Assembly: GCA_018436095.1 (NCBI GenBank)
Contig: JAHDMJ010000020.1
Location: 1-51,579 of the forward strand
DNA: 51,579 bases
Reading direction: 5' to 3'
Origin: Clostridia bacterium
Lineage (GTDB): Bacteria > Bacillota > Peptococcia > DRI-13 > UBA5745
Of the stretch, positions 28,676 through 31,245 are shown piece by piece. The stretch's first letter is position 1. Each line of letters opens with the position of its first letter. Below the pieces are notes generated by a model. The model was not told the origin of the DNA. It ran no database searches and was given only the letters and a program-made list of their open reading frames with translations. Both the position numbers and the translations under genes were made by a program.

Positions 28676-28763
28676 AGAAATAGGAGCTGCTGCTTTTTGT
28701 GGGGCGGCCAGATCCTAAATGTGTTTCGGCCGCTTATCTAAGGATAGGCGGTTTTACTTTTTT
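28676..28763 (+). ncRNA. Putative antisense RNA antitoxin
   Basis: Predicted from a promoter at 28641-28669 and a terminator at 28730-28763: CCGCTTATC pairs with GATAGGCGG over a TAAG loop, followed by TTTTACTTTTTT. A further stem GCGGCC/GGCCGC lies inside. The RNA would overlap the 3' end and 3' untranslated region of the convergent toxin mRNA, as in the txpA/RatA arrangement. It has no open frame of note. Confidence 0.5.
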
Positions 28764-28963: not shown

Positions 28964-28992
28964 TTTACACTGCTAAAAAAATATGATATGAT
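28964..28992 (+). promoter_or_regulatory. Promoter of the aroF-tyrA operon
   Basis: TTTACA (28964-28969), a 17-bp spacer and TATGAT (28987-28992). Transcription would begin near 28999, about 43 nt before the leader peptide start. Confidence 0.65.
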
Positions 28993-29041
28993 GCAACGCA
29001 ATTAAAGCATGGATGCACATGCTGGATTAAGAGGCTTGATT

Positions 29042-29155
29042 ATGCGCGACTTTATTTCTGCAGCCAACTACTATTATTACGCCGGCTTTGCTTATTTTAT
29101 GAGCAAGGTTTCTTTGCGTTTGGCTGACAGGGATATGCGCTTTATGTATTGTTAG
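29042..29155 (+). CDS. Aromatic-rich leader peptide of aroF-tyrA
   Basis: 37 residues after an AAGAGG ribosome site. It contains four consecutive Tyr (residues 10-13) and, within ten residues, a run NYYYYAGFAYF with five Tyr and two Phe; Phe and Tyr also occur at 4, 34 and 36. The stop is 20 nt before a strong intrinsic terminator that precedes the aroF gene. This is the classic layout of ribosome-mediated attenuation: stalling at Tyr (or Phe) codons when charged tRNA is scarce would let transcription continue. Unlike short leaders, about 18 residues follow the control codons. Confidence 0.7.
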   Translation: MRDFISAANYYYYAGFAYFMSKVSLRLADRDMRFMYC

Positions 29156-29175
29156 GCTTAATCTGACAGACATTG

Positions 29176-29210
29176 GAGCCCCGTGGCAAACGCCGCGGGG
29201 CTCTTTTTTT
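29176..29210 (+). terminator. Attenuator terminator before aroF
   Basis: GAGCCCCG-T-GGC pairs with GCC-G-CGGGGCTC over AAAC, followed by seven T. It lies 75 nt before the aroF start and 20 nt after the leader peptide stop. I could not identify a convincing antiterminator by eye; GGCT at about 29120 and GGCTT at 29154 could compete weakly. Confidence 0.85.
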
Positions 29211-29284
29211 ATCCCTGCTTTAATATTTTCCATCAGAAACTCAGAAACAATGATAAAACCAAAATAGAGAAGGAGCGAAAACCC

Positions 29285-30307
29285 ATGATTATTTTGATTA
29301 AAAAAGAGTCCCGCCAAGAGCAGATCGAAAGACTGATTGAGTGGCTGCAAAAACACCAGCTGAACGTCCATGTCTCCGAGGGAATGCTGCAAACCATTTT
29401 AGGCCTGGTCGGCGACACCAGCCGGCTGGATATCGATTTGGTCCGGTCCATGGAAATTGTGGAAGACGTCAAACGTATTCAGGAGCCGTTCAAAAGCGCC
29501 AACCGCAAATTCCATCCGGAAAATACGGTGGTCGCCGCCGGCGGCGCCGTCATTGGCGACGGCAGCCTGACGCTGATAGCCGGTCCCTGCTCCGTAGAGT
29601 CGGAAGAGCAAATCTGCATGATTGCCAAGTCGGTAAAAGCCTCCGGCGCCACCATGCTGCGGGGAGGCGCTTTCAAGCCCCGGACTTCCCCCTACTCCTT
29701 CCAGGGTCTGGGAGACGACGGTATTCGGATGCTTTTGACAGCCAAACAGGAAACGGGGTTGCCCATTGTCACCGAGATTATGGATTTAAGCCAGCTTCAT
29801 CTTTTTGATGACGTCGATGTGATTCAGGTAGGAGCCCGCAATATGCAAAACTTCACACTGTTAAAAGAGCTGGGCCATCAGAGAAAGCCTATTTTGCTGA
29901 AACGGGGTCTTTCCAGCACCATGGAAGAATTGCTGATGAGCGCAGAATACATTATGGCCGGCGGCAACGAGCAGGTGATTCTCTGCGAACGGGGCATCCG
30001 GACCTTTGAAAACTACACCCGCAATACCCTGGACCTCTCCGCCGTTCCTATGCTTAAACAATTGAGCCATCTGCCGGTGGTCGTTGATCCCAGCCATTCC
30101 ACGGGTATGTCCCGTCTGGTACGTCCTATGTCTTTAGCTGCTGTGGGCGCCGGAGTCGACGGCCTGATTATCGAGGTTCACAACGACCCTGCCAACGCCC
30201 TTTGCGACGGACCTCAATCCTTGACCCAGGAAGCTTTCGAGGAGGTGGCCCGGGCAGTGCAACTGGTCTATGATGCAGTGAAGGCCGGAAAAGAGGTACG
30301 CCAGTAA
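29285..30307 (+). CDS. aroF: 3-deoxy-7-phosphoheptulonate synthase (DAHP synthase, type I-beta)
   Basis: 340 residues from ATG 29285 after AGAAGGAG. The N-terminal 75 residues are the ferredoxin-like/ACT-type regulatory domain ([20 protein letters not shown] to [10 protein letters not shown]). The barrel follows, with [43 protein letters not shown] and VDPSHSTG as active-site and metal loops. It condenses phosphoenolpyruvate and erythrose 4-phosphate, the first step of aromatic amino-acid synthesis. Its control by the leader peptide at 29042 and coupling to tyrA (TAATG overlap) imply a Tyr/Phe-responsive operon. Confidence 0.93.
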
Positions 30308-31245
30308 TGAACATCGGCATCGTGGGCCTGGGCCTGATCGGCGGCTCCATGGCTAAAGCAATCAAAGAATTTACCGGTCATACCGTATGGGGTCAGGACA
30401 AGGATTTCAAAACTCAGGCCCAGGCCCTGGCCGAGGGAGTTTTGGATGGCGTTCTTGATGAAGAATCCTTGGGGCAGTGCCAGATTTTATTGCTGGCCCT
30501 TTATCCCCGGGCAACCATCGATTTTCTTTTTGCCCATGCCGATAAAATCAGCAAAAATGCCTGGGTAGTGGACTTATGCGGCGTTAAGGAGCCCGTTTGC
30601 CAGGCTGTTGCTCCTTTGGCCAGCCGTCACGGCTTTTATTTCGCAGGCGGCCACCCCATGGCCGGCCGGGAACGCTCCGGCTATGGGGCTGCCGAGGCCC
30701 GCTTGTTCTGCGGCGCTTCCATGCTGCTCACGCCGCCAGATACTGGGCCTGACGGGCCTGTATTAGGTAAACCGGCACCTGGCGGGCTTGCCCCCAGCGC
30801 AGCCCAGCCGGAGGCGCCTGCACCGGCCTCTCTGCTGCAGGGCTTGGAAACCTTCTTTCTGTCCCTGGGCTTTCGTACCGTTCACTTTACCAGTCCCGCC
30901 GAACACGACCAGGTCATCGCCTATACGTCCCAATTGGCCCATGTACTTTCCAATGCTTACGTCAAAAGCACCGCCGCTTTGCAGTACGAAAACTTTGCCG
31001 GCGGCAGCTTTCAGGATCTAACCCGGGTGGCTACCTTAAATGTAGAAATGTGGACGGAGCTGTTTTTTCTTAACCGGGAAAACCTGATCAAGGAAATTGA
31101 CGGCCTATGCGGCCGCCTGGCAGCCTACAGCGATGCGCTGAACCGGCAAGACGCCGCGGCAATGGCAGCCTTGCTGCAGGAGGGCTGTGATTGGAAAGCC
31201 AGGATCAGCAGCCCTGGAAAAGCTGCGCCGAAGATTTCCCTATAG
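30307..31245 (+). CDS. tyrA: Prephenate dehydrogenase
   Basis: 312 residues. NAD-binding loop [18 protein letters not shown] at the N-terminus, and the catalytic region GGHPMAGRERSGYGAA. A Pro/Ala/Gly-rich insert (about residues 145-175) not seen in most relatives precedes FRTVHFTSPAEHDQVIAYTS. The C-terminal helical dimer domain includes FAGGSFQDLTRVA. It oxidises prephenate to 4-hydroxyphenylpyruvate on the way to tyrosine. No ACT domain, so feedback probably acts through AroF and the attenuator. Stop-start overlap with aroF. Confidence 0.92.
   Translation: MNIGIVGLGLIGGSMAKAIKEFTGHTVWGQDKDFKTQAQALAEGVLDGVLDEESLGQCQILLLALYPRATIDFLFAHADKISKNAWVVDLCGVKEPVCQAVAPLASRHGFYFAGGHPMAGRERSGYGAAEARLFCGASMLLTPPDTGPDGPVLGKPAPGGLAPSAAQPEAPAPASLLQGLETFFLSLGFRTVHFTSPAEHDQVIAYTSQLAHVLSNAYVKSTAALQYENFAGGSFQDLTRVATLNVEMWTELFFLNRENLIKEIDGLCGRLAAYSDALNRQDAAAMAALLQEGCDWKARISSPGKAAPKISL

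Follow-up and report, generated by a model that had tools for sequence, protein, structure and literature searches.

A conserved Tyr/Phe-rich leader and alternative RNA pairings suggest ribosome-mediated attenuation of aroF-tyrA in Clostridia

RESULTS

Organization of the aroF-tyrA locus

The window, the whole stretch of DNA analysed here, is 51,579 nucleotides in length and belongs to the 3.7 Mb genome of a Clostridia bacterium. It contains aroF followed by tyrA (Table 1), a gene order that the initial annotation had claimed and that the Pfam matches support. The nearest named relative of the aroF gene is that of the Clostridia MAG SM1-B15.1, with 93% identity. Ada-like and methyltransferase-like genes (ada/ogt-like) are located upstream of the leader on the same strand; they are followed on the 3′ side by one terminator-like hairpin (28728-28753), and a similar hairpin is conserved in locus L012.

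The leader ORF is short and translatable, it has its own RBS, and codons for the regulated amino acid are over-represented in it. Its aromatic run consists of Y10-Y13, F16, Y18 and F19, five Tyr and two Phe in 10 residues. The initial annotation had reported the 37-codon ORF with four consecutive Tyr and this cluster, as well as the ribosome site in front of it; all were borne out. In most relatives the leader RBS is of the AGGAG type. One intrinsic terminator lies between the leader and the first structural gene. As annotated before, it starts 20 nt past the leader stop codon and ends in T7; the stem, however, is 12 bp in length, not 8 bp. The distance between the terminator and the aroF RBS is 60 nt. 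Compared to dinucleotide shuffles, the leader fold is much more stable (z = -7.8). The annotated promoter was also recovered, upstream of the range (29042-29210) that had been assigned to the leader; its putative boxes, recognized by sequence, are conserved in L012.

Table 1. Features of the leader and the aroF-tyrA operon, numbered along the window
Feature	Position	Strand	Description and evidence
Putative promoter, sigma-70 type	28964-28992	+	TTTACA-17-TATGAT, extended -10 TG; sequence; same boxes in L012
Leader RBS	29029-29034	+	AAGAGG, 7 nt before ATG; sequence
Leader peptide ORF	29042-29155	+	37 codons, MRDFISAANYYYYAGFAYFMSKVSLRLADRDMRFMYC, then stop
Strand 1	29058-29067	+	CUGCAGCCAA, codons A7-A8-N9, with 29061-29067 as the paired core; own-vs-swapped z -7.8 for 1:2; GCA/GCT/GAA fixed among synonymous codons across the family
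Control codons Tyr10-Tyr13	29069-29080	+	Predicted stalling site masking strand 1; constrained folding (model); Tyr codon choice free in family
In-ORF hairpin H	29084-29110	+	GGCUUUGCU...AGCAAGGUU; covariation in 22 sequences
Strand 2	29116-29126	+	GCGUUUGGCUG, codons L25-D29, partner of strand 1 or strand 3; duplex tests and covariation
Strand 3	29184-29193	+	UGGCAAACGC, terminator 5′ arm and loop; 2:3 pairs covary
Intrinsic terminator 3:4	29176-29210	+	12-bp GC-rich stem, 29176-29187 with 29192-29203; loop AAAC; T7 29204-29210
aroF RBS	29270-29275	+	AAGGAG; sequence
aroF	29285-30307	+	3-deoxy-7-phosphoheptulonate synthase (DAHP synthase), B. subtilis type; PF00793 8.9e-77, PF18152, TIGR01361 above cut-off
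tyrA	30307-31245	+	Prephenate dehydrogenase, start overlaps aroF stop; PF02153, PF20463 above cut-off

Conservation of the leader upstream of related aroF genes

We compared 80 aroF relatives from species-representative genomes, mostly Clostridia; close relatives of the window's aroF are over-represented in this sample, and the loci are not phylogenetically independent. An aromatic-rich leader ORF was found upstream of aroF in 70 of the 80 loci, most of them also with a terminator, and about 10 loci have no aromatic leader. This comparison of upstream regions was the check proposed in the initial annotation, and both the leader ORF and the Tyr/Phe run proved to be conserved. When an RBS and seven or more aromatics in 12 residues are required, 68% of 78 related aroF genes have a leader ORF upstream; the same definition is satisfied by 0.1% of dinucleotide shuffles and by 0% of the reverse strands. 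The typical leader peptide contains AAEYFYFSFTYFFGKAYLGLAE, and genomes of the same family have YFYYSYRSFYSFGFF-type leaders with terminators.

The carriers are mostly Clostridia MAGs; the named ones include Oscillibacter valericigenes and Anaerovorax odorimutans. Other carriers are MAGs labelled Lentisphaeria, Planctomycetia and Coriobacteriia, although MAG labels can be wrong. Six loci from Lentisphaeria- or Lentisphaerae-labelled MAGs (L016, L026, L036, L042, L064 and L071) are aroF-pheA operons with Phe-rich leaders and the shared attenuator, which suggests either that aroF and its leader were transferred together or that the MAGs were misbinned. Model R1, built from aroF leaders only, matched 41 of 59 held-out loci on the right strand and just before aroF (E <= 0.01). 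Three same-family leaders (L005, L006 and L009) possess the Tyr/Phe run and the terminator, yet were unmatched by R1.

With ada/ogt-like genes upstream on the same strand, the terminator might simply end that unit, and the leader ORF might be a genuine small protein gene. However, those genes have the separate terminator-like hairpin described above, and the promoter lies at 28964-28992. In addition, the leader and terminator precede aroF in genomes of many groups with varying length and tail, and the antiterminator covaries (see below). We regard this explanation as highly improbable.

Mutually exclusive pairings in the leader RNA

Four pairings are evident in alignment A1 (22 sequences). Strand 1 (family consensus GCAGCUGAAUA) is immediately 5′ of the aromatic run and strand 2 (consensus GGUUUGGCUG) is 3′ of it; hairpin H (consensus AGCUUUACC...GGUAAGGCU) is located between the two strands, inside the ORF. 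Strand 3 (consensus GCAGCCAAAC) comprises the terminator 5′ arm and loop, and strand 4 is the 3′ arm. Strand 1 resembles strand 3, therefore strand 2 is able to pair with either of them. All four pairings covary; by sequence, the 1:2 and 2:3 pairings are mutually exclusive, and so are 2:3 and 3:4. In the window, CAAACGC of strand 3 and GCGUUUG of strand 2 form 7 bp; together with one bulge and weaker pairs, they make a 2:3 helix of modest size.

In the OFF structure (1:2, H and 3:4), 88.8% of the cells in A1 are paired; 62 cells are double-changed, compared to 19 after shuffling (0/500). When this structure was slid out of register, only 34-50% of the cells were paired. The ON structure (2:3 and H) has 89.4% of its cells paired. 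For hairpin H, 95-100% of the cells are paired in the 22 sequences, with AU13/GC8 at columns 67:93; for terminator 3:4, the value is 93%, with compensatory changes in 11 of the 12 pairs.

The alternative stem, whose covariation had also been proposed as a check, covaries. When the 2:3 helix was analysed alone, 83.8% of its cells were paired across 61 distinct sequences, and 64 cells were double-changed, compared to 28 after shuffling (0/500); one pair shows six standard types (GC13, CG11, UA9, UG5, AU2 and GU2). In fitting A4, we used the 1:2 and 3:4 pairings and left out 2:3, for which it therefore offers a fair test. We also compared own with swapped duplexes at 60 non-redundant loci, an approach that is free of alignment. 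The z values are -9.4 for 2:3, -10.3 for 1:2 and -0.2 for the 1:3 control; after composition correction, they are -8.5, -7.8 and -1.0, respectively. The antiterminator 2:3, which excludes the terminator, is thus conserved by covariation. One candidate outer helix, between the 5′ UTR (29000-29040) and the post-stop linker (29150-29172), gave an own-vs-swapped z of -3.9, and the control pairing gave -3.2.

The leader might instead act mainly on aroF translation or mRNA stability, not on termination. However, strand 3 is the 5′ arm of a terminator, which at most loci ends in a T-run, and the aroF RBS is located well past the terminator; control at that level is therefore very unlikely.

The leader tail is conserved as RNA

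Synonymous choice was judged against the codon usage of the neighbouring aroF. It is nearly fixed in strand 1 (GCA in 10 of 10, expected 2.8), in hairpin H (TTT in 20 of 20, expected 9.0; AAG in 17 of 19, expected 10) and in strand 2 (GGT in 9 of 9, expected 1.6; the Leu codon TTG in 13 of 15, expected 1.6; GCT in 12 of 12, expected 2.4). Different from these flanks, the Tyr control codons are free, with TAC in 11 of 19 (expected 11.9) and 10 of 15 (expected 9.6). Therefore, the Tyr residues are kept for decoding and the flanks for RNA.

These results bear on one idea of the initial annotation, that the C-terminal residues might act as a nascent-chain sensor, a conserved tail by which the peptide stalls the ribosome in the exit tunnel. 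GKA..LA-like residues do recur 3′ of the aromatic run. However, the synonymous codons of these tail residues are the nearly fixed ones, and at the nucleotide level the tail shows pairing and covariation both with strand 1 and with the terminator. The strand 2 residues vary (GLA, FTA and FAA) with complementarity kept. Moreover, strand 2 is beyond the leader stop codon in about eight loci (L067, with a misassigned ORF, was left out), and the ORF ends inside strand 2 in four; the conserved tail is therefore RNA, not a nascent-chain sensor. An arrest peptide should be conserved with free synonymous change, a pattern that the tail does not have. We rejected this candidate, and the sensor idea, now contradicted, has hardly any probability left.

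Folding with a stalled ribosome and the proposed mechanism

We folded the leader under constraint, using a ribosome footprint of ~29 nt. Helix 1:2 forms (P 0.99), and 2:3 stays unformed, when the ribosome is absent or has reached the stop codon. When the A site is at Tyr10, Tyr11 or Tyr12, strand 1 is masked, and 2:3 has a probability of 0.95 for RNA extending to 29193 and 0.83-0.86 for RNA extending to 29196. With the A site at Tyr13, the ON state is found at 29193, mostly not at 29196. At Phe16, Tyr18 or Phe19, strand 1 is free and 1:2 wins (0.91-0.92). In the model, strand 2 is released only with codons 10-13 in the A site, and the control codons are so placed that a stalled ribosome would mask strand 1. 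Since only Tyr10-Tyr13 release strand 2, the switch in the window's genome should respond to Tyr, in agreement with its location before aroF-tyrA. At equilibrium, the 12-bp terminator always wins in the complete leader (P 1.00 at 29203); the choice would therefore have to be kinetic, made as the RNA emerges, like in classical attenuators.

Taken together, these observations indicated that the leader is very probably a ribosome-mediated transcription attenuator, one that would read the supply of charged tRNA-Tyr and control aroF-tyrA. Attenuation of the trp/pheA type at this Bacillota operon, as the initial annotation had proposed, is strongly supported by conservation and by covariation that includes the antiterminator. 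When Tyr is plentiful, the leader ribosome would clear the Tyr run, and 1:2 would pair with H nested between; strand 3 would stay free, terminator 3:4 would form and transcription would end before aroF. When Tyr is scarce, the ribosome would wait at Tyr10-Tyr13 and cover strand 1; strand 2, now free, would capture strand 3 before strand 4 is available, the terminator would fail and aroF-tyrA would be transcribed. Hairpin H may be an RNA polymerase pause hairpin that helps the polymerase wait for the ribosome. In-cell stalling, read-through, the Tyr response, the kinetic decision and the pacing of RNA polymerase by H are all steps that we infer.

Amino acid specificity and the same RNA frame before other genes

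In many relatives, the signal is best explained as tRNA-Tyr and tRNA-Phe. The Tyr/(Tyr+Phe) ratio is 0.47 in 48 tyrA operons vs 0.30 in 10 pheA operons (p = 0.013); restricted to the five codons that follow strand 1, it is 0.64 for tyrA vs 0.39 for pheA (p = 0.017, n = 40 and 5, respectively). Both tests ignore shared ancestry, and the contrast includes few pheA loci. Trp is nearly absent from the leaders (mean 0.12).

Beyond aroF, we searched 398 genomes of the phylum with R1. In L114 (G322:C35:39260-39401), the same RNA frame carries a Val-rich leader, MFSLAHIVNVVAVVVSVVVVYNAVLRCAEQECR, before ilvB (acetolactate synthase); in L115 (G114:C10:441781-441942), it carries a Leu/Ile-rich leader, MNTLFVSAAILLTVIAGLLTSDSGYLRCLQTD, which starts with TTG and precedes leuA. 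Both ilvB and leuA are above the NCBIfam cut-offs. The control codons thus match the product, Tyr/Phe with aroF-tyrA/pheA, Val with ilvB and Leu/Ile with leuA. Two tandem Phe-rich leaders, each with a terminator, precede one aroF gene in a one-contig genome (L113/L120, G270:C1:739454-739752). The broader model R2 found 12 places above 60 bits in the 398-genome sample; all of the readable ones are amino acid leaders.

Matches of R1 or R2 at about 30-43 bits in other genomes are mostly plain terminators (L116-L119, L121-L123, L125-L136 and L138), which we rejected; among those read, only L124 and L137 are aroF leaders.

The frame, composed of strand 1, a control-codon run, the in-ORF hairpin, a coding strand 2 and the terminator, may be a modular one that is widespread in Clostridia. 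Under this proposal, the control codons alone would be swapped between pathways, sometimes in tandem, and the frame would have travelled with aroF into genomes assigned to Lentisphaerota and Planctomycetota; we put the chances for and against it as even. If this is true, T-boxes would have a large ribosome-mediated counterpart in Bacillota.

DISCUSSION

Comparison with known attenuators

Ribosome-mediated attenuation is a classical mechanism. In trpL, the control codons are located in strand 1 and the stop codon between strands 1 and 2. Like the Proteobacteria trpL and pheL leaders (trp/phe/his type), the leader described here encodes a peptide in which the regulated amino acid is abundant; it also has strands 1-4 that exclude one another in pairing, an intrinsic terminator and a biosynthetic operon behind it. 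Different from trpL, the control codons come directly after strand 1, and the ORF as a rule includes strand 2, with the stop codon past it; different from trp/phe/his-type attenuators, there is one extra conserved hairpin, H, within the ORF. We judge this layout to be unusual: strands 1 and 2 flank the control codons, hairpin H falls within the ORF, and most loci have a coding strand 2.

The report closest to our case concerns uORFC-13-1, a motif upstream of aroF in Acholeplasma for which attenuation was proposed; as described in the text of that report, it has 24 sequences, from Acholeplasma and environmental sources only (PMC8632094). By the same text description, on which our comparison is based, its uORF likewise lies ahead of aroF, contains one or more Phe codons and is directly followed by a terminator (PMC8632094). 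In E. coli, attenuation by tRNA-Tyr was proposed for aroF-tyrA (Camakaris 1980, as cited in PMC2659441); going by this citation, operon and proposed signal are the same, although it is a hypothesis only and concerns a proteobacterium. Ribosome-mediated attenuators of amino acid operons with experimental support are also known in Firmicutes, the Rli60 leader of Listeria ilv-leu (PMC5864092) and the Leu-rich attenuator peptide of Staphylococcus aureus leu (PMC5794164). Different from the leader described here, both are branched-chain systems of Bacilli and do not involve aromatic sensing. Histidine leader peptides, predicted only, precede hisS/hisZ in Bacilli (PMC2965389); they likewise use a leader peptide instead of a T-box in Firmicutes, but for histidine and other genes.

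The kind of regulation is therefore known. From the literature we looked up, the family, its breadth and its layout are apparently unreported; the 2010 comparative survey of Lopatovskaya and colleagues, as cited in PMC4833913, could list some of the operons. The aromatic attenuator, which covaries in 61 sequences, is found commonly among uncultured Clostridia from gut and environment, and is absent from Rfam. The analysis yields one covariance model and one point-by-point prediction, that only Tyr10-Tyr13 count.

T-boxes in the same genome

RNA-based control of amino acid genes in Clostridia is usually ascribed to T-boxes. Like the proposed attenuator, T-box riboswitches (RF00230) sense charged vs uncharged tRNA; different from it, they do so without leader translation. 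The same terminator could be controlled by a T-box, a protein-binding RNA or a small-molecule riboswitch, with the ORF being incidental, and T-boxes do serve other amino acid genes in the window's genome. However, RF00230 was not matched upstream of aroF, and none of the 4227 models of Rfam release 15 matched the leader at gathering score; a permissive E-value scan gave chance-level matches only. Furthermore, conservation extends to the reading frame, the RBS and the Tyr/Phe run, with the choice between the Tyr codons being free. Such control is accordingly most improbable, and we keep to ribosome-mediated attenuation.

The window's genome has 12 T-box matches, none at aroF; they are upstream of trpE, trpD, a trpB-like gene, pheS, leuA (two in tandem), an aminotransferase and others. 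The attenuator thus occurs side by side with T-boxes, which this genome uses for its tryptophan, PheS and leucine genes. The contrast with T-boxes drawn in the initial annotation is real within this genome (trp genes, pheS and leuA vs aroF). The leader is less isolated than supposed, since 70 of 80 loci have an aromatic leader and Firmicutes cases are published. This raises the question of why translation serves one pathway branch and a T-box another in the same cell.

No second copy of the attenuator element was found in the window's own genome. The genome has a second aroF copy next to pheA (L001, G000:C4:130589-131317), without an aromatic leader or nearby T-box. The two T-box matches upstream of leuA (L098/L102, G000:C31:50869-51566) are adjacent to each other.
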